Assembly (NCBI GenBank): GCA_020348765.1
Contig: CP070753.1
Coordinates: 2,015,539 to 2,027,847 of the forward strand
Direction of reading: 5' to 3'
Length of the DNA: 12,309 nt
Source: Burkholderiales bacterium
GTDB lineage: Bacteria > Pseudomonadota > Gammaproteobacteria > Burkholderiales > Burkholderiaceae_E
Position numbers and translations under genes: made by a program. Below the pieces are notes generated by a model, which had not been told where the DNA came from, searched no databases, and saw only the letters and a program-made list of their open reading frames with translations. The first letter of the stretch is position 1, and each line of letters begins with the position of its first letter. Of the stretch, positions 2-12,309 are shown one piece after another.

Positions 2-970
2 GCACCGGCCCCAGGCCCCGGGTCCGCCGATTCGCCCCGGGAGCAGGCCTTCGAGGCCGCGATCGCCGCCGATCACAAGATCGAGCCGCAGGACTGGATG
101 CCCGAGGGCTACCGAAAGACGCTGGTGCGGCAGATCAGCCAGCATGCACACTCCGAGGTGGTCGGCATGCTGCCGGAGGGCAACTGGGTGACCCGCGCGC
201 CGAGCCTGAAACGCAAGGCGATCCTGCTCGCGAAGATCCAGGACGAGGGCGGCCACGGCCTGTACCTCTATTCGGCGGCCGAGACGCTGGGCGTTTCGCG
301 CGACCAGATGATCGAGGCGCTGCTGGCCGGCAAGGCGAAGTACTCGAGCATCTTCAATTACCCGGCGCTGACCTGGGCCGACATGGGCGTGATCGGCTGG
401 CTGGTCGACGGCGCGGCGATCATGAACCAGATCCCGCTTTGCCGGTGCTCGTTCGGCCCTTATGCACGGGCGATGATCCGCATCTGCAAGGAGGAGTCGT
501 TCCATCAGCGCCAGGGCTACGACCTGCTGCTGACGATGATGCGCGGGACCCAGGCACAGCGGGACATGGTGCAGGAAGCGGTCGACCGCTGGTGGTGGCC
601 GGTGGTGATGATGTTCGGGCCGTCGGACAAGGACTCGGTGCACTCGGCGCAGTCGACGAGGTGGGGGATCAAGCGCATCTCGAACGACGACCTGCGCCAG
701 AAGTTCATCGACGCGACGGTGCCGCAGGCCGAGCTGCTGGGCGTGACCCTTCCGGACCCGGCCCTGAAGTGGAATGCCGAGCGTGGACACTACGACTTCG
801 GCGAGATCGACTGGGACGCGTTCTGGCGCGTGGTCAACGGCGACGGGCCGTGCAACCGGGAACGCATCACGGACCGGATCCGAGCCCACGAGCGCGGCGC
901 ATGGGTGCGCGAGGCCGCGATGGCGCATGCGCGCAAGGCCCGGGCTCGCAGCGAGCACGGCGCTGCCTGA
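2..970 (+). CDS. paaA: PaaA, phenylacetyl-CoA 1,2-epoxidase catalytic di-iron subunit (5' partial)
   Basis: Catalytic subunit of the cytosolic multicomponent monooxygenase that epoxidises the ring of phenylacetyl-CoA using O2 and electrons from PaaE. The frame is open to the left edge. The residues before the ATG at 98 (ending IEPQDW) align with the N-terminal region of E. coli PaaA as I remember it, so that ATG is an internal Met and the true start lies outside the window. Counting that Met as 1, the ferritin-like ligand motifs are E20 (HAHSE), E50 and H53 (DEGGH), and E133 with H136 (EESFH); E20, E50 and H53 correspond to E42, E72 and H75 of the E. coli protein. Other family blocks are [23 protein letters not shown] and the C-terminal [10 protein letters not shown]. 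It is first in paaABCDE, 42 bases before paaB. No damage is seen; family identity is very secure. Confidence 0.97.
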
Positions 971-1012
971 GCGACAGGGGCGGGCCGCAGCGAGCCGACG
1001 GGGAAACGAATC

Positions 1013-1306
1013 ATGAGCGATCCGAGACGCGAATGGCCGCTGTGGGAAGTGTTCGTCCGCAGCAAGCAGGGACTGGACCACAGGCACTGCGGGAGCCTGC
1101 ATGCGGCGGATGCACAGATGGCGCTGCGCCTGGCGCGCGACGTCTACACGCGCCGCATGGAGGGCGTCAGCATCTGGGTGGTGCCCTCGGCGGCGATCAC
1201 CGCGTCCGCGCCCGAGGACAAGGCGAGCGACTTCGACCCGATGGCAGACAAGATCTACCGCCATCCGACGTTCTACGAACTGCCGGATGAACTGAAACAC
1301 ATGTGA
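1013..1306 (+). CDS. paaB: PaaB, phenylacetyl-CoA epoxidase subunit B
   Basis: Small non-catalytic subunit, 97 residues (about 95 in E. coli), that bridges PaaA/PaaC heterodimers in the epoxidase complex. The N-terminal block WPLWEVFVRSKQGLDHRHCG, the VYTRR segment and the C-terminal FYELPDELKHM are characteristic of the family. The ATG has a GGGGA Shine-Dalgarno-like stretch at 1000-1004, 8 bases upstream. The stop at 1304-1306 overlaps the likely GTG start of paaC, which fits translational coupling and equimolar production. A longer frame-1 reading across this region (439-1290) has the composition of a shadow frame and is not used. Confidence 0.96.
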   Translation: MSDPRREWPLWEVFVRSKQGLDHRHCGSLHAADAQMALRLARDVYTRRMEGVSIWVVPSAAITASAPEDKASDFDPMADKIYRHPTFYELPDELKHM

Positions 1307-2145
1307 GCGCGGCCATGACGACCGTCGATACGCCTGCACAGGGTGCCGCGGGCGGCGCCGAAGCCGCGGCCGCGGCGCTCGGCCCGGAGCACGTCGAGTA
1401 CCTGCTGCGGCTCGGCGACAACGCGCTGGTGCTGGGCCAGCGGCTGTCCGAGTGGTGCGGGCACGGACCGGTGCTCGAGGAAGACCTGGCGCTCACCAAC
1501 ATCGCGCTGGACCTGATCGGTCAGGCGCGGCTGCTGCTGTCGCACGCGGCCCGGCTCGAGGCGCGCGGCCGCGACGAGGATGCGCTCGCCTATTTCCGCG
1601 ACGAGCAGGCGTTTCGCAACTGGACCCTGCTCGAGCTGCCCAACGGGGAAGCCAAGCATGACGACTACGCGGTGACCGTCGCGCGCAACTTCCTGCACTC
1701 GGCGCTGATGGTCGAGCTGTGGCAGGCACTGGCCGGCTCGACCGACCCCCAGCTCGCCGCGATCGCGGCCAAGTCGCTGAAGGAGGCGCGCTCGCACCTG
1801 CGCCACTCGGCCGACTGGATGATCCGTTTCGGCGACGGCACCGAGGACTCGCATGCCCGTGCCCAGGCCGCGCTGGACCGGCTGTGGCCTTACACCAACG
1901 AGTTCTGGGCCGCCGACCCGGTCGAGCAGAGGGCGGCCGCCAACGGCATCGGCGTCTCGACCGCGGCCCTGAAGCCGGCCTGGGACCAGACCGTGGACGC
2001 GGTGCTGGCCGAGGCCTGCCTGAAGCGCCCGGCCGACTCGAACTTCGTTTCGACCGGCAAGCTCGGCCGGCACAGCGAGTTCCTGGGCTATCTGCTGGCC
2101 GAGATGCAGTCGCTGGCCCGCCAGCACCCCGGGGCCACCTGGTGA
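1303..2145 (+). CDS. paaC: PaaC, phenylacetyl-CoA epoxidase structural subunit
   Basis: Ferritin-like structural partner of PaaA; the A/C pair is the minimal stable core of the epoxidase, while PaaC itself is not the catalytic subunit. Family blocks are LLRLGDNALVLGQRLSEWCG near residues 34-53, then ALDLIGQAR, FRDEQAF, LLELPNGE, KEARSHLRHS and the C-terminal GRHSEFLGYLLAEMQ. The GTG at 1303 overlaps the paaB stop as GTGA and gives 280 residues. An in-frame ATG at 1315 gives 276, and neither has a clear Shine-Dalgarno. Compared with E. coli PaaC (about 248) there is an Ala/Gly-rich N-terminal extension of roughly 25 residues before the first conserved block. The stop at 2143-2145 overlaps a possible GTG start of paaD. 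Confidence 0.95.
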   Translation: MSAAMTTVDTPAQGAAGGAEAAAAALGPEHVEYLLRLGDNALVLGQRLSEWCGHGPVLEEDLALTNIALDLIGQARLLLSHAARLEARGRDEDALAYFRDEQAFRNWTLLELPNGEAKHDDYAVTVARNFLHSALMVELWQALAGSTDPQLAAIAAKSLKEARSHLRHSADWMIRFGDGTEDSHARAQAALDRLWPYTNEFWAADPVEQRAAANGIGVSTAALKPAWDQTVDAVLAEACLKRPADSNFVSTGKLGRHSEFLGYLLAEMQSLARQHPGATW

Positions 2146-2159
2146 CCGAGGGCGAGCGC

Positions 2160-2741
2160 ATGGCCCCGAACGGAACCTTGGTAAGCGAGGGTTCGACCGC
2201 GATACCGGCGACGAACAGCGACCGGCTCGAACGCGCCCGGGACGCGGCGGCCGGTGTGCCGGACCCCGAAATCCCGGTCGTGACCCTGGCCGACCTGGGG
2301 ATCCTGCGCGCGGTGACGCTCGAAGGCGAGCGCGTCGTCGTACAGCTGACGCCGACCTACACCGGCTGCCCGGCCACCGAAGTGATCGCAGACCAGGTGC
2401 GCGAGGCGCTGCGGCAGGCCGACGTCGGCGCGTTCGAGGTGCGCCTGACGCTGTCGCCGGCGTGGACCACCGACTGGATCACGCAAGCCGGTCGCGGCAA
2501 GCTGCGCAGCTTCGGGATCGCACCGCCCGCGTGCGCCGCGAACGGCGCCGGGGGTGAAGTTGCGGTCGTGCGGCTGTTTCCGCGTGCGCCGGGCTTCGAT
2601 GCGCGTCCCAACGCCCCGGACTGCCCGCGCTGCAGTTCGCACCTGGTCGAACGCCTGTCGGACTACGGATCGACCCCTTGCAAGGCCCTGTATCGGTGCC
2701 TGAGCTGCCGCGAACCGTTCGACTATTTCAAGCCCTACTGA
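2160..2741 (+). CDS. paaD: PaaD, MIP18/DUF59 protein linked to epoxidase iron-sulfur maturation
   Basis: PaaD is required for an active epoxidase but is not a stable part of the complex; its family is tied to iron-sulfur cluster assembly, presumably of PaaE. The protein is 193 residues (about 167 in E. coli). A DUF59/MIP18 domain covers roughly residues 22-105, with the hallmark VPDPEIPVVTLADLGIL at 33-49 and TPTYTGCPA carrying C70. The C-terminus has a cysteine array, C155-x2-C158, C174, C180-x2-C183, ending FDYFKPY, which looks like a metal or cluster site. The ATG at 2160 follows a GAGGGCGAG stretch. An alternative GTG at 2142 would overlap the paaC stop and add six residues. The first 20 residues are not family-like. 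Confidence 0.94.
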   Translation: MAPNGTLVSEGSTAIPATNSDRLERARDAAAGVPDPEIPVVTLADLGILRAVTLEGERVVVQLTPTYTGCPATEVIADQVREALRQADVGAFEVRLTLSPAWTTDWITQAGRGKLRSFGIAPPACAANGAGGEVAVVRLFPRAPGFDARPNAPDCPRCSSHLVERLSDYGSTPCKALYRCLSCREPFDYFKPY

Positions 2742-2758
2742 CTGCGCGACATCGAGCC

Positions 2759-3844
2759 ATGTCCGTGCCGCACTTCCACACTCTGAGCATCCGCGACGTC
2801 CGGCCCGAGACGGCCTACGCGATCTCGGTCGCGTTCGAGGTGCCCGACGCGCTGCGCGAAGCGTATCGATTCCGCCAGGGCCAGTTCCTGACGCTGCGCC
2901 ACGAGGTCGACGGCGAGGAGTTGCGCCGTTCGTACTCGATCTGCATCGGCGTTCCCGACTACGACCGGGACCGCGAACTGAGGGTCGCGATCAAGCGCGT
3001 GGCCGGCGGACGCTTCTCGAACTGGGCCAACGAGCACCTGAAGGCCGGCCAGCGCATCGACGTGATGACGCCCGACGGCCGCTTCTTCACCGAGCTGGCG
3101 CCCGGTCAGCGCAAGCACTACGTGGGCTTCGCCGGCGGTTCGGGTATCACGCCGATGCTGTCGCTGATCAGCACCACGCTGGCCGTCGAACCCGACAGCG
3201 AGTTCACGCTGTTCTACGGCAACCGGGCGGTCGCCTCGATCATGTTCGTCGAGCCGCTGGAGGAGCTGAAGAACCGCTACATCGACCGGCTGCGGCTGTA
3301 TCACGTGCTGTCGGACGAGGCCTCGGAGCTCGAGCTGCTCAGCGGCATGCTCGACCTGGGACGCTGCCGCGAGCTGCTCGATGCGCTCGCGCCGGCGGAC
3401 ACGATCGACGAGGCGTTCGTCTGCGGACCGGAACCGATGATGGACGCGGCCGAACAGGCGCTGCTCGATGCCGGCGTCGCCCGCGAGCGCATCCACATCG
3501 AGCGCTTCGGGGTGCCGGCACCTTCGGGCGCGCCTGCACGTCCGGCCGCTTCCGGCGGGCCGTCGGCCGAGGTGATCCTGATCGTCGACGGCAAGGAACG
3601 GCATCTGAAAGTCGAATTCGACGGCGCGCCGATCCTGGACGCCGGCCTTGCCGCGGGCGCGAACCTGCCGTACGCCTGCAAGGGTGGCGTCTGTTGCACC
3701 TGTCGCGCCCGCGTGCTCGAGGGCGAGGTGCGCATGGACAGGAACTTCACACTCGAGGAGCACGAAATGGCGCGGGGGTTCGTGCTGACCTGCCAGTCTC
3801 ACCCGGTGAGCGAGCGGCTGGTGGTCAGCTACGACGAGCGCTGA
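2759..3844 (+). CDS. paaE: PaaE, phenylacetyl-CoA epoxidase reductase (FAD, 2Fe-2S)
   Basis: Passes electrons from NAD(P)H through FAD and a plant-type 2Fe-2S cluster to PaaA. Length is 361 residues (356 in E. coli). An FAD-binding ferredoxin-reductase domain (about 1-110) carries RRSYS at 56-60. The NAD domain (about 115-250) has GGSGITPM at 126-133 and CGPEPMM at 222-228. A Pro/Ala/Gly linker (252-270) leads to a ferredoxin domain with C307-x4-C312-x2-C315 and C345. The ATG at 2759 places the start 17 bases after the paaD stop and begins MSVPHFHTL, like known PaaE. An upstream in-frame ATG at 2678 lies inside paaD and is rejected. All cofactor residues are present, so this should be a working reductase. 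Confidence 0.96.
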   Translation: MSVPHFHTLSIRDVRPETAYAISVAFEVPDALREAYRFRQGQFLTLRHEVDGEELRRSYSICIGVPDYDRDRELRVAIKRVAGGRFSNWANEHLKAGQRIDVMTPDGRFFTELAPGQRKHYVGFAGGSGITPMLSLISTTLAVEPDSEFTLFYGNRAVASIMFVEPLEELKNRYIDRLRLYHVLSDEASELELLSGMLDLGRCRELLDALAPADTIDEAFVCGPEPMMDAAEQALLDAGVARERIHIERFGVPAPSGAPARPAASGGPSAEVILIVDGKERHLKVEFDGAPILDAGLAAGANLPYACKGGVCCTCRARVLEGEVRMDRNFTLEEHEMARGFVLTCQSHPVSERLVVSYDER

Positions 3845-3894: not shown

Positions 3895-4698
3895 ATGGCA
3901 CGCACACGCGCACCGGACTACGAGCAGCACAGGGACCGCATCCTGGTCGAGGCGGTCCAGGCATTCGCGCGCATCGGCTACCCGAGCGCATCGATGTCCC
4001 GGCTTGCCCGGGCATGCGGCGTCTCCAAAGCGACGCTCTACCATTATTTCAGCAGCAAGGACGCGCTGCTGTTCGAGGCGCTGGACCGCTACACGCGATC
4101 GCTGGGCGCTCGGCTCGAGGCGGTGCGCGCGCGCCGGCTGGCACCGCGCGACGAGCTGGCGGCGATCGTGCGCACGCTGATGGACCAGTACCGCAGCTCG
4201 CATGCCTATCACGCCGCGCTGCTCAACGATGTCAAGTTCCTGGCGCAGCACGAGCGCGAGATGATCCGGGCCCAGGAGCGGGTGGTCGTCGACGCGGTCG
4301 CGCACAGCATCGAGCGCGCGTTTCCGCTGACCGTCACGGCGGCCAACCGCACGGTCGTGACGATGGCGCTGCTCGGCATGGTGAACTTCACGTTCGCCTG
4401 GCTGGACCCCGACGGGCCGGTCAGCCACGATCAGTTCGCCGAGGCCGCGATCGAGCTCTGGACCAGGGGCCTCGAGGCCGGTCGCCTCGGGTCGCTGCGA
4501 TCATTGTCCGGGCCGCCGCCGGGTCGAGCGCCCCGCGCAGCGCCGGGCGACGCACCCGACGCGGCCAGCGGCGACGCACCCGACGCGGCGCCCGGGGAAG
4601 CACCGGGCAGATTGCCCGGCGCAGCATCGGGCGCCGTCCGAACGACCACCGAGACCGAGAGGAAGCGCGATGAGCAAGCAGTTCGCATCGAAGGGTGA
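3895..4698 (+). CDS. paaR: TetR-family regulator, probable PaaR repressor of phenylacetate genes
   Basis: DNA-binding repressor candidate of 267 residues. The N-terminal TetR helix-turn-helix spans about residues 12-60, with the recognition region ACGVSKATLYHYFSSKDALL at 40-59. The ligand-binding half contains blocks such as LNDVKFL and QERVVVDA that I associate with the PaaR group of betaproteobacteria, which respond to phenylacetyl-CoA. The ATG at 3895 lies 50 bases after paaE, so it is probably cotranscribed; its likely operator, ahead of paaA, is outside the window. The core ends near residue 200. A tail of about 60 residues, rich in Ala, Pro, Gly and Asp, follows with an 8-residue repeat (GDAPDAAS/GDAPDAAP), unusual for TetR proteins. 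The stop lies 29 bases inside the next gene. TetR assignment is secure; the PaaR name rests on context and recalled similarity. Confidence 0.85.
   Translation: MARTRAPDYEQHRDRILVEAVQAFARIGYPSASMSRLARACGVSKATLYHYFSSKDALLFEALDRYTRSLGARLEAVRARRLAPRDELAAIVRTLMDQYRSSHAYHAALLNDVKFLAQHEREMIRAQERVVVDAVAHSIERAFPLTVTAANRTVVTMALLGMVNFTFAWLDPDGPVSHDQFAEAAIELWTRGLEAGRLGSLRSLSGPPPGRAPRAAPGDAPDAASGDAPDAAPGEAPGRLPGAASGAVRTTTETERKRDEQAVRIEG
4546..4589 (+). repeat. Tandem repeat coding for the regulator's C-terminal tail
   Basis: The 20-base unit GGCGACGCACCCGACGCGGC occurs at 4546-4565 and again, identical, at 4570-4589, a 24-base period that keeps frame. It codes for GDAPDAA twice in the regulator's tail. 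A degenerate third copy (GEAPGRLP) follows. The likely origin is slippage or unequal recombination in GC-rich DNA, so copy number could vary between strains. Confidence 0.85.
4658..4663 (+). promoter_or_regulatory. Ribosome binding site of the metallo-beta-lactamase gene, inside the tetR 3' end
   Basis: AGAGGA sits 6 bases before the ATG at 4670, within the last codons of the upstream regulator. It supports the chosen start despite the 29-base gene overlap and suggests coupled translation. Confidence 0.7.
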
Positions 4699-5629
4699 CC
4701 TGACCGCCAAGGTCGTGACCTTCACCAAGCTGTCCGACCATGCCTATGCGTACACGGCCGAGGGCGACCCGAACTCCGGCGTCATCATCGGCGACGACGC
4801 CTGCATGGTGATCGACACGACCGCGACCCCGGCGATGGCGCAGGACCTGATCAGGCGCATCCGCGAGGTCACCGACAAGCCGATCAAGTACGTGGTGCTT
4901 TCGCACTATCACGCGGTGCGCGTGCTGGGCGCCTCGGCCTATTTCGCCGAAGGCGCGACCGAGATCATCGCCAGCCGCGGCACCTACGAGCTGATTCGCG
5001 AACGCGGAGAGGCCGACATGAAGTCGGAGATCGAGCGCTTTCCGCGGCTGTTCCAGAACGTCGAGTCCATCCCGGGCCTGACCTGGCCGACGATGGTCTT
5101 CGAGCGCGAGCTGACGCTCTACCTGGGCGAGCTCGAGGTCAAACTGATGCACATCGGCCCGGGGCACACGCGCGGCGACACGATCGCGTGGCTGCCGTCA
5201 CAGCGCATCTGCTTCTCGGGCGACCTGGTCGAGTACAACGCCGGGGTGTACACCGGCGACGCCCAGCTCGAGGAGTGGCCGGACACGCTCGAGAGGCTGC
5301 GGGCGCTCGATCCCGAGAAGCTGGTGCCCGGTCGCGGGCCGGCGATGCAGACGCCGGCCGACTGCAACCAGGCGATCGACTACACGAAGAAGTGGGTCAC
5401 CGACCTGTTCGCGACCGCCAGGGCCGGCGTGGCCGCGGGCAGGGACCTGAAGCAGATCTTCGCGGACACGCGCCAGGTGATGGACCCGGTGTTCGGCCAC
5501 GTGTTCATCTACGAGCACTGCATGCCGTTCGACGTCTCGCGCGCGGTCGACGAGGCGCAGGGGATCAAGCACCCGCGCATCTGGACCGCCGAGCGCGACA
5601 TCGAGATGTGGAAGGCGCTGCAGGACTGA
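4670..5629 (+). CDS. Metallo-beta-lactamase-fold protein with degenerate second metal site
   Basis: Cytosolic protein of 319 residues with no signal peptide; the reaction is unknown. The MBL fold shows in the strand/turn SGVIIGDDACMVIDT (36-50), the VVLSHYHAVR region, GPGHTRGDT (163-171), FSGDLVEY (182-189) and LVPGRGP (218-224). The usual HxHxDH motif reads H79-Y-H81-A-V83-R84. H79, H81, H166 and D185 remain, enough for the first metal site. The Asp and His of the second site are Val and Arg, and the usual PGHG histidine is R222. A C-terminal helical extension of about 90 residues follows. It overlaps the probable paaR by 29 bases and sits in the paa gene group, so a role as thioesterase or hydrolase on an aromatic CoA side product is possible, but this is context only. 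Fold secure, function unassigned. Confidence 0.9.
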   Translation: MSKQFASKGDLTAKVVTFTKLSDHAYAYTAEGDPNSGVIIGDDACMVIDTTATPAMAQDLIRRIREVTDKPIKYVVLSHYHAVRVLGASAYFAEGATEIIASRGTYELIRERGEADMKSEIERFPRLFQNVESIPGLTWPTMVFERELTLYLGELEVKLMHIGPGHTRGDTIAWLPSQRICFSGDLVEYNAGVYTGDAQLEEWPDTLERLRALDPEKLVPGRGPAMQTPADCNQAIDYTKKWVTDLFATARAGVAAGRDLKQIFADTRQVMDPVFGHVFIYEHCMPFDVSRAVDEAQGIKHPRIWTAERDIEMWKALQD

Positions 5630-6531: not shown

Positions 6532-6649
6532 AGGGAGGCCCAGATGACGATACGGCGGAGCCGACCGGACCGAGGGTCGATCGAACAGGACGTACGAGAG
6601 CCGGGCTGCGCGCGGGTTGCCAGCCGGATTCGAGGAGGCAGCTCGCGCG

Positions 6650-6715
6650 ATGCGTGGTTCGGTGCGCTATTCGAACGAGGGGGTCCCGGACCGCGGGCCC
6701 GAGGCGGTCCGGTGA
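6650..6715 (+). CDS. Possible 21-residue leader peptide translationally coupled to livH
   Basis: An ATG at 6650 opens a 21-codon frame (MRGSVRYSNEGVPDRGPEAVR) whose TGA at 6713-6715 overlaps the GTG start of livH at 6712 as GTGA. A perfect AGGAGG lies at 6633-6638, 11 bases before the ATG, slightly long but usable. No family is recognised and the composition is not strongly gene-like, so a protein role is unlikely. If translated, ribosomes finishing here would be placed at the livH start and would unfold the hairpin at 6686-6712. It is incompatible with translation initiating for livH at 6544, which would run through in another frame. Confidence 0.35.
   Translation: MRGSVRYSNEGVPDRGPEAVR
6686..6712 (+). 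promoter_or_regulatory. 9-bp hairpin covering the livH ribosome site and start
   Basis: CCGGACCGC at 6686-6694 pairs perfectly with GCGGTCCGG at 6704-6712 around the 9-base loop GGGCCCGAG. The 3' arm ends on the first base of the GTG at 6712, and the weak Shine-Dalgarno GAGG (6701-6704) lies in the loop and stem edge. In mRNA this would hinder initiation at 6712 unless opened by an upstream ribosome. Confidence 0.5.
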
Positions 6716-7725
6716 GACGATTCGTCGAGCGACACACGTTCTGGGCGATCGTGATCCTGCTCGGAGTCGCGATCTTCCTCTGGCTCATCTTCGCCGTCTG
6801 GCCCGATTGGCTGGAAGCGGCCTTCGGCCGCAAGAAGACCTTCGTCAACACGCTGCTCAACGGCGTGACCCTCGGCGGGCTGTATTTCCTGGTGGCGAGC
6901 GGGTTCACGCTGGTCTTCGGCCTGATGCGCAACGTCAACCTGGCCCATGGCTCGATGTATCTGTTCGGGGCCTATGTCGGCTACGAGGTGGCGCAGGCCA
7001 GCGCCAGCTGGTTCCTCGGCCTGGCCGTGGCATTTCTCGTCGTCGCGCTCGCCGGCGCACTGATGCAGGTGCTGATCTTCAGGAGGATGGAAGGCGAAGA
7101 GTTGCGCCAGACGCTGGTCACGATCGGCATCTCGATCATCGCGGCCGACCTGATGCTCGCGATCTGGACCGGGACGACCTATCAGTTCTCGCCGCCCGAG
7201 TGGCTCTTCGGCGCGGCTACGCTGCCGATCGTGTCGGTGCTGAAGTCCTCCGGTGATCCGGTGTACATCAAGTACCCCGTCTATCGCCTTTCGGTTTTCG
7301 TGCTGGCCGTGGCGGTCGGCATCGGCCTGTGGCTGTTCCTGAACCGCACGCGGGTCGGCATGATGATTCGCGCCGGCGTCAACGACCGCGACATGCTCGC
7401 GGCCTCGGGCGTCAACGTCCAGCTGGTGTTCGCGCTGGTGTTCGCGATCGGAGCGGGGCTGGCCGGTTTCGCCGGCGTGGTCGGCGGCACCGCGTTGTCG
7501 ATCGCCCCCGGCGAGGACGTGCGCTACCTGCTCGCGTCCCTGATCGTGGTCATCGTGGGCGGCCTCGGCTCGGTCACCGGCGCGGCCATCGGCGCGCTGA
7601 TCATCGGGCTGACCGAGCAGTTCGGTCTTGCCTATTTCCCGACCTACGGGGTGGTGCTGACTTTCCTGATCATGGTGCTGATGCTTGCGGTCCGGCCGCA
7701 AGGGCTAATGGGCAGCACGGGCTGA
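6712..7725 (+). CDS. livH: Branched-chain/aromatic acid-type ABC transporter permease (LivH family)
   Basis: One of two inner-membrane channel subunits of a HAAT-family importer, 337 residues from the GTG at 6712. The LivH core starts near residue 44 with TFVNTLLNGVTLGGLYFLVA, then GFTLVFGLMRNVNLAHGSMY, the cytoplasmic coupling-loop block GVNDRDMLAASGVNV, and VVIVGGLGSVTGAAIGALII near the end. About eight or nine hydrophobic segments are visible. An extra N-terminal segment (about 11-30) precedes the core, making it longer than a typical LivH of about 300. The start is uncertain: an ATG at 6544 with a well-spaced GGGAGG would add 56 residues, but that stretch uses ATA, GTA, CTA, GGA and many CGA codons unlike the rest of the gene and looks untranslated. 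livM starts 2 bases after the stop. Substrate cannot be read from the sequence. Confidence 0.9.
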   Translation: MRRFVERHTFWAIVILLGVAIFLWLIFAVWPDWLEAAFGRKKTFVNTLLNGVTLGGLYFLVASGFTLVFGLMRNVNLAHGSMYLFGAYVGYEVAQASASWFLGLAVAFLVVALAGALMQVLIFRRMEGEELRQTLVTIGISIIAADLMLAIWTGTTYQFSPPEWLFGAATLPIVSVLKSSGDPVYIKYPVYRLSVFVLAVAVGIGLWLFLNRTRVGMMIRAGVNDRDMLAASGVNVQLVFALVFAIGAGLAGFAGVVGGTALSIAPGEDVRYLLASLIVVIVGGLGSVTGAAIGALIIGLTEQFGLAYFPTYGVVLTFLIMVLMLAVRPQGLMGSTG

Positions 7726-7727
7726 GC

Positions 7728-8810
7728 ATGGATTCGCGCAACCTCTTCTCGGGCCGGATCACCCGGACGCCGGTTTCGCCGGCCGCCGCCCTGCTGGTGG
7801 TGTTCCTGCTGGCCTACCCGGGATTCGCGTCCGACTTCTTCGTGTTCCAGATCGGCGCCTATTCGCTGATCCTCGGCACGATCGCGCTGTCGCTGATGAT
7901 GCTGGCCGGCTATGGCGGAATGGTCAGCCTGGCGCAACTGACGGTCGCGGGCTTCGCCGGCTATCTGGTCGCGATCCTCGGCGTCAACAGCGTCGGCGTG
8001 ATGGGCCTCGGCTGGCCGTGGTGGCTGACGGTGCCGGTGGCGATCGCGGCCGCGGTGCTGCTGAGCACCTTCGTCGGCGCGATCTCGGTGCGCACCGAGG
8101 GTATCTACACGATCATGATCACGCTGGCGATCGCGGTCGCGTTCTTCTACTTCGTCCGGCAGAACTACGTGCTGTTCAACGGTTTCACGGGGTTCGCCGG
8201 CGTCGAGCCACCGACGCTGGCGGGCCTGTACTGGCGCGACCCGGCACCGTTCTACTACCTGACGCTCGCCGTGGCCGCGTTCTTCTACTGGGCGGTGCTG
8301 CACGGATCGCGAACGACCTTCGGTCTGAGCCTGCAGGCGATCCGGGACAACCCGCGGCGCATGAACGCGCTCGGCTTCAATGTCGCCCTGCACCGCGTCT
8401 TCGCCTACACCCTGGCCGGCCTGATCGCCGGCACGGCCGGCGTGCTGCTGGTCTGGTTCAACGGGCGCATCTCCCCGGGATCGGTGGGTGTGGACATCGT
8501 CATCGACATCCTCGTGATCGCGGTGGTCGGCGGCATGCGGCATCCGGCCGGCCCGTTCCTCGGGGCGATCGCGTTCGTGCTGCTCGAGAACTTCGCGATC
8601 GACCTGATCGACCGCGAGCGCTTCAACACGGTCATCGGGCTCGCCTTCCTTCTGGTCGTCCTGTTTTCGCCCGACGGCATTCTCGGACTCTGGAACCGGG
8701 CCCGCGCACGGCTCCGGACCGCAACGCCCGCGTCACGCCTCGCCGGCGGCGCGGGCAACAACGACCGGCAGCCCGCCGGATTGATCGAGCAAACCCAGCA
8801 GTGGAGGTGA
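7728..8810 (+). CDS. livM: Branched-chain/aromatic acid-type ABC transporter permease (LivM family)
   Basis: Second inner-membrane channel subunit, 360 residues. LivM features are a hydrophobic N-terminal helix (about 20-37), GTIALSLMMLAGYGGMVSLA, SVRTEGIYTIMITLAIAVAF, the coupling-loop block LQAIRDNPRRMNALGFNVAL, VVGGMRHPAGPFLGAI and the closing FSPDGILGLW. About nine membrane segments can be traced. After the last one a polar, unconserved tail of about 35 residues faces the cytoplasm. The ATG at 7728 sits 2 bases after the livH stop with no strong Shine-Dalgarno, which implies coupled translation. The stop at 8808-8810 lies within the ribosome site of the binding-protein gene. Confidence 0.93.
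   Translation: MDSRNLFSGRITRTPVSPAAALLVVFLLAYPGFASDFFVFQIGAYSLILGTIALSLMMLAGYGGMVSLAQLTVAGFAGYLVAILGVNSVGVMGLGWPWWLTVPVAIAAAVLLSTFVGAISVRTEGIYTIMITLAIAVAFFYFVRQNYVLFNGFTGFAGVEPPTLAGLYWRDPAPFYYLTLAVAAFFYWAVLHGSRTTFGLSLQAIRDNPRRMNALGFNVALHRVFAYTLAGLIAGTAGVLLVWFNGRISPGSVGVDIVIDILVIAVVGGMRHPAGPFLGAIAFVLLENFAIDLIDRERFNTVIGLAFLLVVLFSPDGILGLWNRARARLRTATPASRLAGGAGNNDRQPAGLIEQTQQWR
8803..8810 (+). promoter_or_regulatory. Strong ribosome binding site of the binding-protein gene
   Basis: GGAGGTGA, a full-length match to the anti-Shine-Dalgarno, lies 2 bases before the ATG at 8813 (GGAGG core spaced by 5). It contains the livM stop. It is the strongest such site in the operon, fitting the usual excess of binding protein over permease. 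Confidence 0.75.
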
Positions 8811-8812
8811 CC

Positions 8813-10060
8813 ATGATCGGCATCAGAACAACCATCCTCGCGACGGCGGCGGTCGTCGCACTAACGGGCCCCGCGCTCGCGCAGGAGACCATCAAGATGG
8901 GCGCGCTGGCAACGCTGGAAGGTGCCTTCACGGTGCTCGGCGAAGACGGCATGCGCGGCGTGCGACTGGCGCTCGAGGAATTCAATTCCACGGCCGGCGG
9001 CAAGAAGATCGAGCTGATCACCGGCTCGTCGGACGCTTCGCCCGACAGCGCGATCCGTGCCACCCGCAAGCTCGTCGAACAGGACGGCGTTCAGGTGCTG
9101 ATCGGCCCGCTGTCCGGGTCCGAGGGTCTGGCAGTCAAGGACTATGCCAAGACGCAGCCCAACGTGACCTTCCTGAACGGGACTTCGGCGGCGCAGGACA
9201 CGACGCTGCGCGCGCCGGCCGAGAACTTCTTTCGCTTCAGCACCGACGGCGCCCAGTGGATGGCCGGGCTGGGCGAGTATGCATACAACGTCAAGAAGTA
9301 CCGCAAGGTGGCGGTCCTGGCCGAGGACTACTCGTTCCCGTACACACAGGTGTTCGGCTTCCTCGAGCCGTTCTGCCGCCTCGGCGGCAAGGCTCCGGCC
9401 GACGCGCGTTTCTGGGTGCCGATCGGCAACAAGGACTACTCGTCGGTGATCGCGGCACTGCCCGACGACGTGGACGCGATCTATGTCGCGCTCGGGGGCG
9501 CCGACGCGGTCAACTTCCTGACGCAGTACGAGCAGGCCGGCGGCTCGTTGCCGCTGATCGGCGGCTCGATCACCGTGGACCAGACGGTGCTGGGCTCCAA
9601 GGGGCGCACCCGCAAGTTCGTCGTCGGCACGCCGTCGGCCGGGCCGATCTCCGACACCTGGGACGATCCCAGGTGGAAGGCGTTCGTTGCCGCTTACAAG
9701 AAGCGGTTCCCGGACGGTTTCCCCTCTCCGTCCCTGTTCGCCCACGGCTACTACGTCAACACCAAGGCCGCGCTGCTGGCGCTGAACGAGGTCGGCGGGG
9801 ACCTGTCCGACGGCGGCAAGAAGTACCGCGCCGCGCTCTCGAAACTGTCGTTCGATACGCCAACCGGCAAGGTCTCGCTCGACGCGCGGCGCCAGGCGGT
9901 CGCCGACATGTTCCTGACCGAAGTGGTCGAGGGCCCCGGCGGCAACCTGCTGAACAAGGTGGTCGAGGTCATTCCGCAGGTCAGCCAGACGCTCGGCGTG
10001 CCGTACGAGAAGTTCCTGGAGTACGGTCAGGTGAGCCGCAGCAACCCGAAGTGTGAGTGA
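8813..10060 (+). CDS. Periplasmic substrate-binding protein of the HAAT-family ABC transporter
   Basis: 415 residues. A Sec signal peptide is clear: R5, a hydrophobic core at 8-18 and an ALA-Q cleavage site after A23. The mature protein has the type I periplasmic-binding (Leu/Ile/Val-binding-like) fold: IKMGALATLEGAFTVLGEDG, then GVRLALEEFN, ATRKLVEQDGVQVLIGPLSG, FFRFSTDGAQW, VAVLAEDYSFPYTQ, and the second-lobe blocks VDAIYVALGGADAVNFL and LPLIGGSITVD. It presumably captures the transported acid and delivers it to LivH/LivM. The ligand is unknown: aromatic acids, branched-chain amino acids or other carboxylates are all possible for this family. It is not a lipoprotein (no lipobox). The stop overlaps the livG start as GTGA. 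Confidence 0.94.
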   Translation: MIGIRTTILATAAVVALTGPALAQETIKMGALATLEGAFTVLGEDGMRGVRLALEEFNSTAGGKKIELITGSSDASPDSAIRATRKLVEQDGVQVLIGPLSGSEGLAVKDYAKTQPNVTFLNGTSAAQDTTLRAPAENFFRFSTDGAQWMAGLGEYAYNVKKYRKVAVLAEDYSFPYTQVFGFLEPFCRLGGKAPADARFWVPIGNKDYSSVIAALPDDVDAIYVALGGADAVNFLTQYEQAGGSLPLIGGSITVDQTVLGSKGRTRKFVVGTPSAGPISDTWDDPRWKAFVAAYKKRFPDGFPSPSLFAHGYYVNTKAALLALNEVGGDLSDGGKKYRAALSKLSFDTPTGKVSLDARRQAVADMFLTEVVEGPGGNLLNKVVEVIPQVSQTLGVPYEKFLEYGQVSRSNPKCE

Positions 10061-10857
10061 ACCGCGGCATGGAGCCTGGCACCGACGCGCTGTCCCGCCT
10101 GCAGAGCGCCGGGCGCTTCGCGCTCGAGCTGGAGGCGGTCAGCCGTCATTTCGGCGCGCTGGTCGCGCTCGCGGACATCAACCTGACCGTTCGCGCAGGC
10201 GAGCGACGCGCGGTGCTGGGCTCGAACGGGGCCGGGAAGACGACCCTGTTCAATGCGATCACGGGCGACTTTCCTACGACCACCGGCCGCGTGCGCCTGT
10301 TCGGCGAGGACGTGACCGACCTGCCCAGCCACGAGCGGATCCGGCGCGGGCTGCGCCGCACCTACCAGATCTCGCTGCTGTTCGGCGGCCTGAGCGTGAT
10401 CGACAACGTGTTCCTCGCCTGCCGTGGGGTCGGCCGCGGCAGGTTCTCGCTGCGCCGGCCCCGGCACGACGACACGGCGCTCGAGTCAGCATCGACGCTG
10501 TTGTCGGCCGTGCACCTGGACGAAGTTCGCGACACGATGGTGTCCGAACTCAGCCACGGCCAGCAGCGGCAGCTCGAGATCGCGCTCGCGCTGGCCGGCG
10601 CACCGCGGCTGGTGCTGCTCGACGAGCCGGCGGCTGGGCTGTCGCCGACCGAACGCTCGGACCTGGTCGCGATCCTGCAGGCGCTGCCCGAGCACATCAG
10701 CTTCATCATCATCGAGCATGACATGGATGTCGCGCTGCGGGTCGCGCAGAGCGTCACGATGATGCACAACGGCAGGATCTTCAAGGAGGGCACCCCGGAG
10801 GAAATCGAGAACGACACCGAAGTGCAGGAGCTCTACCTCGGGCATGCCCATGGCTGA
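10057..10857 (+). CDS. livG: ABC transporter ATP-binding protein (LivG family)
   Basis: Cytoplasmic ATPase of the importer, 266 residues. Walker A GSNGAGKTT is at 55-63, the Q-loop near Q104 (TYQISLLF), the signature LSHGQ at 165-169, Walker B LVLLDEP at 185-191 and the switch histidine H221 in IIEHDMD, the usual LivG form. The C-terminal NGRIFKEGTPEEI block is also typical. All residues needed for ATP hydrolysis are present. The GTG at 10057 overlaps the binding-protein stop; an in-frame ATG at 10069 would remove four residues. The stop at 10855-10857 overlaps the start of the next gene by 8 bases. With the LivF-type ATPase it should form the heterodimeric motor. Confidence 0.95.
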   Translation: MNRGMEPGTDALSRLQSAGRFALELEAVSRHFGALVALADINLTVRAGERRAVLGSNGAGKTTLFNAITGDFPTTTGRVRLFGEDVTDLPSHERIRRGLRRTYQISLLFGGLSVIDNVFLACRGVGRGRFSLRRPRHDDTALESASTLLSAVHLDEVRDTMVSELSHGQQRQLEIALALAGAPRLVLLDEPAAGLSPTERSDLVAILQALPEHISFIIIEHDMDVALRVAQSVTMMHNGRIFKEGTPEEIENDTEVQELYLGHAHG

Positions 10858-12309
10858 TCGACCGCGCGCACCAACCGCCAATGCACCGGCGTTGCAGGTG
10901 CGGGACCTGCACGTCTACTACGGGCACTCGCACGCGCTGCAGGGCGTCGACCTGCAGGTCGCGCACGGGGTGCACGCGGTGGTGGGCCGCAACGGCATGG
11001 GCAAGACGACGCTGTGCAACGCGATCATGGGCCTGCTGCCGATCCGGCGCGGCTCGATCCGATTCCACGGCGACGAGGTGGTGGGTCGACCGCCGTACCG
11101 CATTGCCTCGCTCGGCATCGGCTATACGCCCCAGGGCCGCAGGCTGTGGCCGTCCCTGACCGTCGAGGAGCACCTTCGGCTCAGCGACGCAGGCGCCGGC
11201 ACCTGGACCATCGAGCGCGTCTACGATACGTTTCCGCGCCTCCACGAGCGCCGCCGCAACGGGGGCGGACAGCTGTCAGGGGGCGAGCAGCAGATGCTCG
11301 CCATCTCGCGGGCGCTGCTGCGGGACCCGCGCCTGCTGGTGCTGGACGAGCCCACCGAAGGGCTCGCGCCGGTGATCGTCGAGCAGGTCGATCGACTGCT
11401 CGGCACGCTCGCCGAGGAAGGCGACGTGGCCATCCTGCTGATCGAGCAGAACATCGCGGTCGCCACTGCGATCGCCGAGGACGTGGCGGTCATGGTCAAC
11501 GGGCGCATCAGCCGCGTGCTGCCTGCGCGGCAGCTCGTGGCCGATCGCGCGCTGCAGGAGCGCCTGCTGGGCGTCGGACGTCATTCGAGCGAGGACGTCG
11601 AACTGTCCGCGCTGGAGGCCACGGATGCCGCGGTGCGCGCGGCCGAACAGGCCGGTGCGCATACGCTCGAACGCGTGCAGCGCGCCGAAGTCTCCGCGCC
11701 GGCGCGGCCGCAGACGGCCGAGGCCGGCGCGGCGCTCGAGGCCGAGCCCCGAGCCGGGTCGCTGATCTACGTGCCACCGACCCGCTGGTCCCGCGCCGAA
11801 TGGCAAAGGCGCGGCGAAGCCCGCGGCCGCGCCGATTCGGCGCCGAAGGAGCCGGTCCAGGTCCCGCCGCAGCGCCCGTTCGATGCGCGGGTCGAGCCGC
11901 TGTACTCGGCGCCGCCGACGCCGCTCTCGGTGCTGCTGGGCAGCGACGCCTACGTGGTCGGGACTTTCGACACCAAGGGCGCGGAGCTCAATTACATCCG
12001 CGACTGCCTGGTGGCACAAGGCATCCGCGTTCGCGCCGTCGACCTGTCCACGTCGGGCAAGCCTTCGTCGGCCGAGGTCGCGCCGCACATGGTCGCCGCC
12101 TACCACCCGCGCGGCGCGAACGCGGTCTTCACCGGCGATCGCGGTGCTTCGGTGCGCGCGATGTCCGAGGCCTTCGAGCGCTGGCTGACCCGACAGCGCG
12201 GCATCGGCGGCATGATCTCGGCCGGCGGTTCGGGCGGCACGGCGCTGGTCACGCCGGCGATGCGCGCGCTGCCGATCGGCCTGCCGAAGGTGATGGTCTC
12301 GACGGTGGC
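10850..12309 (+). CDS. livF: LivF-family ABC ATPase fused to a Tm-1-like (UPF0261) ATP-binding domain (3' partial)
   Basis: The ATG at 10850 opens a frame with no stop to the window edge (486 codons). Residues 12-242 are a complete LivF-type nucleotide-binding domain: Walker A GRNGMGKTT (46-54), Q95, signature LSGGEQQ (142-148), Walker B LLVLDEP (162-168) and LLIEQN (197-201 region), where Gln takes the place of the switch His as in other LivF proteins. An ordinary LivF would end about here. Instead an Ala/Glu/Arg/Pro-rich linker (about 243-365), containing WSRAEWQRR, leads to a Tm-1-like domain: YVVGTFDTKGAELNYIRDCL (368-387), VDLSTSG, FTGDRGASV and ISAGGSGGTALVTPAMRALP (456-475). That family is named for the N-terminal half of the tomato Tm-1 protein; its bacterial reaction is unknown. 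Codon use is uniform across the joint, with no frameshift sign. Confidence 0.9.
   Translation, partial: MADRPRAPTANAPALQVRDLHVYYGHSHALQGVDLQVAHGVHAVVGRNGMGKTTLCNAIMGLLPIRRGSIRFHGDEVVGRPPYRIASLGIGYTPQGRRLWPSLTVEEHLRLSDAGAGTWTIERVYDTFPRLHERRRNGGGQLSGGEQQMLAISRALLRDPRLLVLDEPTEGLAPVIVEQVDRLLGTLAEEGDVAILLIEQNIAVATAIAEDVAVMVNGRISRVLPARQLVADRALQERLLGVGRHSSEDVELSALEATDAAVRAAEQAGAHTLERVQRAEVSAPARPQTAEAGAALEAEPRAGSLIYVPPTRWSRAEWQRRGEARGRADSAPKEPVQVPPQRPFDARVEPLYSAPPTPLSVLLGSDAYVVGTFDTKGAELNYIRDCLVAQGIRVRAVDLSTSGKPSSAEVAPHMVAAYHPRGANAVFTGDRGASVRAMSEAFERWLTRQRGIGGMISAGGSGGTALVTPAMRALPIGLPKVMVSTV

Follow-up and report, generated by a model that had tools for sequence, protein, structure and literature searches.

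A gene at the right-hand end of the window, the 12,309-nucleotide stretch of contig CP070753.1 analyzed here, encodes a LivF-type ABC transporter ATPase joined in one polypeptide to a UPF0261 (Tm-1-like) domain. This ABC-UPF0261 fusion is confirmed as genuine, and the architecture is a recurrent one and no oddity of the window genome. Judging from its sequence relatives, the UPF0261 domain is probably an ATP-using enzyme of the kinase type, and its substrate is probably a small imported compound, aromatic or keto. In the reading that we propose, the LivF motor tethers a UPF0261 enzyme that would act on the imported compound with ATP and pass its product to a PF09370 protein. We give this reading an even chance of being right.

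The fused frame encodes 488 residues with 0 stops and is open at its end because the contig ends there; the 3' end of the gene is cut, and a 100-N scaffold gap comes next. The source is a pseudo-scaffold of a 3.02 Mb genome bin that is 57% complete. See Table 1 for feature coordinates; the start of the fused gene may be 10850 instead of 10844. In the predicted protein, a full-length LivF-type ATPase is joined through some 120–130 linker residues to a UPF0261 N-terminal domain, of which the initial two thirds are present. Pfam places PF00005 at residues 32–171 of 488 (96.2 bits, cut-off 25). PF06792 spans residues 370–488 (129.6 bits, cut-off 27) and model positions 4–126 of 176; of the UPF0261 part, the window has just the first ~117 residues. 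The GC fraction at third codon positions is 0.896 over the ABC portion, 0.867 over the linker, and 0.908 over the UPF0261 portion, and the linker accordingly looks coding. A second UPF0261 domain, PF23189, was found in the relatives P0002, P0009, and P0029; the window contig stops inside PF06792. The initial annotation had claimed a covalent ATPase-UPF0261 fusion, and this was borne out by the stop-free frame, both Pfam domains, and the same junction in all 119 listed homologues. No stop codon was found in the linker, where one had been named as the sign against a fusion.

Table 1. Features of the window and of related loci (loci are numbered with the prefix L).
Feature	Location	Strand	Basis or remark
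LivF-type ABC ATPase - linker - UPF0261 N-terminal domain gene	10844..12307	+	one open frame, PF00005 + PF06792
Walker A GRNGMGKTT	10985..11011	+	motif position
ABC signature LSGGEQQ	11273..11293	+	motif position
Walker B LLVLDEPTEGL	11333..11365	+	motif position
Linker, A/P/E-rich	11579..11950	+	from LLGVG end to PF06792 start
Linker motif YVPPTRWS (RW core)	11768..11791	+	motif position
UPF0261 motif GTFDTKG	11960..11980	+	motif position
UPF0261 motif GGSGGT	12224..12241	+	motif position
LivG-type ABC ATPase, presumed partner of fused ATPase	10057..10857	+	PF00005 + PF12399
LivK-type periplasmic binding protein, 415 aa from ATG	8813..10060	+	PF13458, 186.9 bits
LivM-type permease	7719..8810	+	PF02653
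LivH-type permease	6544..7725	+	PF02653 at residues 104-381
paaA, paaB, paaC, paaD, paaE	within 98-3844		paaA, paaC by NCBIfam; paaD by Pfam; paaB, paaE by position and eye
TetR-like ORF	after phenylacetyl-CoA epoxidase genes		by eye
Metallo-beta-lactamase-fold gene	4670-5629
Regulator-like PF09370 gene	L008:2802-4535
Regulator-like PF09370 gene	L009:1939-3798
Regulator-like PF09370 gene	L020:1238-3037
Regulator-like PF09370 gene	L021:4015-5871
Regulator-like PF09370 gene	L023:3567-5411	-
Regulator-like PF09370 gene	L024:3935-5683	-
Regulator-like PF09370 gene	L025:4012-5856	-

The ATPase part has the features of LivF from HAAT-type importers, with PF00005, the Walker A, signature, and Walker B motifs, and an operon containing LivG, LivH, LivM, and LivK. 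The LLIEQN motif is also intact. The domain scores below the NCBIfam cut-offs of both LivF (NF008626; 149.7 vs 441 bits) and UrtE (TIGR03410; 224.3 vs 285.8 bits), and on these scores we place it in the same superfamily as the LivF and UrtE equivalogs and outside both. The LivH, LivM, LivK, and LivG genes are tightly packed upstream on the same strand, and LivG overlaps the start of the fused gene. The true start of LivH is probably further in than 6544. The best solved relatives of the window LivK are 4zpj, 4ey3, and 4evq, of which the latter two are presumably aromatic-acid binders. Phenylacetyl-CoA epoxidase genes lie upstream of the importer in the window.

We listed the best 120 of 7988 protein matches at E<=1e-30, after scoring the 7998 candidates that shared most words. 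All 119 non-self proteins among them contain PF00005, PF06792, and PF23189 (ABC, UPF0261 N, and UPF0261 C), at 61–69% identity and lengths of 624–818 aa. The carriers span several bacterial orders and include the isolates Hwanghaeella grinnelliae and Reyranella soli. Among 40 loci from genome contigs, 12 have the fusion, eight have LivF, UPF0261, and PF09370 as adjoining separate genes, and the remaining 20 have an ABC ATPase with no UPF0261 match in the stretch examined. Among the matches listed, in which fused matches rank first, the fusion is present in 7/36 same-family relatives of the window, in 0/24 same-order relatives outside that family, and in 14/337 genomes of the class of Hwanghaeella. 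Within the window's own class it occurs in 2/274 genomes, namely the window's own and the carrier of the L010 contig. The statement that UPF0261 proteins are normally separate is thus a fair one, as fused genes are a minority (e.g., 14/337), yet they are named in databases.

The architecture is already listed in databases. The names given to fused proteins include "ABC transporter permease," "ATP-binding cassette domain-containing protein," "Tm-1-like ATP-binding domain-containing protein," and "hypothetical protein." One JGI name states both halves: "uncharacterized protein (UPF0261 family)/ABC-type branched-subunit amino acid transport system A..." With source names of this kind, the link between ABC and UPF0261 is easily missed. 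A literature search found no published description of the ABC-UPF0261 fusion, and the MarK paper may discuss it. The words "ABC" and "transporter" are absent from the accessible text of PMC5028733.

Where the flank permits a view, the gene order of fused loci is LivH-LivM-LivK-LivG-[LivF::UPF0261]-PF09370. The PF09370 gene is directly downstream in 30/31 fused loci with room, often with overlapping frames. This count consists of 27/32 by match position within 60 bases of overlap, with L054, L082, and L086 added, where the PF09370 match overlaps the end of the fused gene by >60 bases, and with L049 left out, as it has no room downstream. The exception is L085, where the fused gene lies between amidohydrolase and flotillin-like genes with no nearby PF09370 and no LivG match. 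PF09370 is absent from the fused polypeptide in these relatives, being a separate gene. A TIM-barrel gene had been predicted just to the right of the window, and one was found at that place in these 30 fused relatives as well as in the window's own bin, where it adjoins a same-clade fragment of a UPF0261 gene. That fragment is on contig L006, which begins inside a UPF0261 gene and continues with PF09370 and an SRPBCC::oxidoreductase gene; fragment and window fall in the same 12-row clade of the UPF0261 tree. We considered whether L006 directly continues the window sequence; its first 40 bases align with the window's last 40 bases with 8 mismatches, so the two are not simply the same sequence. 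L006 could be a second copy or come from another strain. The same genome also has a stand-alone UPF0261 gene (L007:9446-10702, L001), whose protein scores closer to 9mpy than to Tm-1; the ORF after it looks HAD-like by eye.

Several other families recur in these operons, as assigned by Pfam and NCBIfam on representatives from L008 and L010. Flotillin-like, SRPBCC, and SRPBCC::quinone-oxidoreductase genes often follow PF09370 in fused loci. FAA-hydrolase, alpha/beta hydrolase, and amidohydrolase genes are downstream in L008–L011 and before LivH in L014, L015, L018, and L027. The flotillin (SPFH)-like gene is frequent in fused loci, examples being L010:13868-15925, L008:13884-15938, and L085:3692-5164. 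UPF0261 and PF09370 are separate genes within the same importer operon in L019–L025 and L035. In eight further loci (L092–L099) the pair has no Liv match within the ~4.2 kb flank, and L091 and L102 have UPF0261 alone. An SRPBCC gene, called by a Pfam run on L096, lies between PF09370 and UPF0261 in L096:2717-3157(-) and L098:2710-3156(-), with no Liv gene seen there. It is possible that the SRPBCC protein is a third core member of the UPF0261 and PF09370 module. L104 has a distant UPF0261 and PF09370 pair adjoining a class II aldolase/short-chain dehydrogenase gene.

Seven loci (L008, L009, L020, L021, L023, L024, and L025) have a second type of PF09370-matching gene, of 577–619 aa, on the upstream side of the importer. 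We scanned two of these proteins for Pfam domains. The L021 protein combines PF09370 with a sigma-54 activator domain and a Fis-type HTH, and the L008 protein has PF09370 and the HTH with no sigma-54 match. Both histidines that are invariant in the enzymes are replaced in all seven (H183 to N and H226 to E), and they are retained in 20/20 PF09370 enzymes of the operons. The same seven copies keep N49, R52, R54, N120, E145, and Y162 of the 20 operon enzymes. This pattern suggests that the regulator-like protein is a non-catalytic, enzyme-derived sensor of the pathway substrate or product.

We next compared the fused UPF0261 domain with solved relatives. PDB 9mpy has the title "Saro_1862 ... with bound acetovanillone," and Saro_1862 is possibly the kinase MarK. 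In alignment A2, which contains split and fused UPF0261 relatives and in which the window covers the first part only, 32/36 invariant residues are also present in 9mpy. The D, T, and K of the DTK in GTFDTKG are invariant in this alignment. The fused domain thus appears to share the core residues of Saro_1862, and we do not assign it as a hydroxyphenyl-ketone kinase. By structural alignment it is 44% identical to Tm-1 vs 31% to 9mpy, and its substrate may differ from the acetovanillone type because it is closer to Tm-1 than to 9mpy. To our knowledge, no activity has been reported for any fused ABC-UPF0261 protein, nor have most Tm-1 homologues been given a settled physiological role.

The linkers of 154 fused sequences, a set with some near-duplicates and with the window counted twice, are 87–217 residues long and rich in A, P, and E. 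An RW pair is present in 153/154 of them, 152 times as [TNPA]RW[SNGT]; the one linker without it is that of L055. RW is kept where the rest of the linker is unalignable, e.g., in Reyranella, Limibaculum, and the window's same-family relatives. Among the 43 linkers without the common [YH][VI]PPTRW form, 42 have RW, against an average of 4.9 and at most 14 in 2000 shuffles. About half of these 43 still look like the common form, and the contrast is inflated by relatedness. In the predicted structure of P0002, both modules are confident, the pTM is 0.58, and residues 243–330 have pLDDT <50; the linker is therefore modeled as disordered. The conserved RW looks like a docking motif. Docking onto the protein's own domains found no support, with residues 243–330 of P0002 all under pLDDT 50.

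For the history of the fusion, we built a UPF0261 tree of 54 rows by quick search, with SH-aLRT support only and an outgroup of two distant, long-branched rows. The 32 fused rows form one side of a branch (SH-aLRT 99), equal to 1 change. This clade spans several families, with no re-split member in the tree. The 19 split rows are paraphyletic around it, with some intervening forks at only 83–90, and in the deepest split row, L019, UPF0261 already lies between LivF and PF09370. The LivF tree broadly agrees. In it, 23 fused rows and the unfused L103 form one clade (support 98/95), and the LivFs of split operons are just outside, together with L026, L056, L069, and L071, which have no UPF0261 in the stretch examined. 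In L103, a LivF with a short tail and no UPF0261 is followed by a different ORF that looks, by eye, like a DHDPS-type TIM barrel; L103 may be a loss of UPF0261 or a near-branching relative. The simplest reading of these trees would be an old operon with livF, UPF0261, and PF09370 side by side, followed by one fusion and its spread, mainly in Alphaproteobacteria (from record titles), and also in the window's class and one MAG labeled as an actinobacterium.

In the mechanism that we propose, LivK and LivHM would import the compound as in an ordinary ABC importer. The tethered UPF0261 domain would modify it in an ATP-dependent manner at the cytoplasmic mouth of the importer, as a kinase or activating enzyme for the incoming compound, and the tether would let the compound be captured before it leaks back. 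The product would pass to the PF09370 TIM-barrel enzyme of the adjoining gene, and the RW motif of the linker may dock a partner, perhaps this TIM barrel. Two findings favor an enzyme over a pure motor regulator: the UPF0261 and PF09370 pair occurs without a Liv match in the flank examined, and the two are also separate genes in the same operon. The initial annotation had left both roles open, tying import either to a nucleotide-dependent step or to regulation of the motor; the former now appears the more likely, and the latter, as a pure motor regulator, lost ground. The tethered-enzyme proposal is itself weakened because split operons do without a tether, because the L103 LivF sits in the fused clade without UPF0261, because the LivFs of L026, L056, L069, and L071 near the split ones have none in the stretch examined, and by the absence of PF09370 and LivG near L085 and of RW in L055.

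Alternatively, the fusion may be neutral, or its sole benefit may be equal production and co-folding of the two products, with no functional coupling. The two genes already adjoin in split operons, some with overlapping frames, and the length of the linker varies, both of which speak for this view. However, the fused genes form a single clade across several families with no re-split member (L103 being a possible loss), and RW is kept in nearly every one of these otherwise poorly alignable linkers. We consider a neutral fusion rather unlikely. We also judge it unlikely that UPF0261 senses a nucleotide or metabolite as a regulatory domain and slows or halts the motor as product accumulates. Its C-terminal position on a nucleotide-binding domain fits this role, as C-terminal regulatory domains are known in other ABC ATPases such as MetN and ModC, and the partner family PF09370 serves as the N-terminal domain of regulator-like proteins in some of the same loci. 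However, the fused UPF0261 keeps the invariant residues of split and distant proteins, most of them also found in 9mpy, whereas both invariant histidines are gone from the regulator copies of PF09370; in addition, the pair occurs without an adjoining importer in the flank examined, and the linker is long and modeled as disordered. Finally, an assembly or frameshift artefact fusing two genes, which the position of the window at the contig end of an incomplete bin might suggest, has practically no chance of being correct and is rejected at the level of the family, as the same junction recurs across independent genomes, isolates included.

Returning to the tethered enzyme, a fuller version would be an importer with a motor-borne UPF0261 kinase, an RW motif that recruits the next enzyme, and an enzyme-derived sensor that induces the operon. 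By phosphorylating the emerging substrate, the kinase would trap aromatic or keto compounds that can permeate membranes. We offer this version tentatively and hold it to be rather improbable in full. The fusion suggests chemical modification of a compound right upon its entry into the cell, and if import and phosphorylation were physically coupled, a primary active importer would be joined to its first metabolic enzyme. The operon also provides a genetic list of partners, namely the importer, its binding protein, the TIM-barrel enzyme, the SRPBCC protein, and the enzyme-derived sensor, and a test of a single binding protein from this list could reveal the substrate.

The fused proteins differ from known systems in their combination of parts. 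Compared with LivF and UrtE of HAAT importers, full-length fused relatives have ~520 extra residues. A single solved relative of PF09370 was found, Mll9387 (PDB 2p10), which matches the L010 TIM-barrel protein over nearly the whole length (E 2e-122); we know of no reaction for either, and "PEP hydrolase" is a label only. Saro_1862 of Novosphingobium aromaticivorans (9mpy) is a 406-residue UPF0261 chain without an ABC part and is 31–35% identical. Tm-1, the tomato virus-resistance protein, is a relative of the fused enzyme-like domain. According to the accessible text of PMC5028733, Tm-1 homologues are widespread in bacteria, archaea, fungi, and plants, and Tm-1L has its UPF0261 part fused to a TIM barrel. 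In Tm-1 and plant Tm-1-like proteins, UPF0261 and the TIM barrel are thus one chain, whereas in the window type UPF0261 is joined to the ABC ATPase, with the TIM barrel encoded by a gene of its own. Compared with PTS group translocation, an import-coupled kinase of this kind would be a functional analogue built from unrelated parts.
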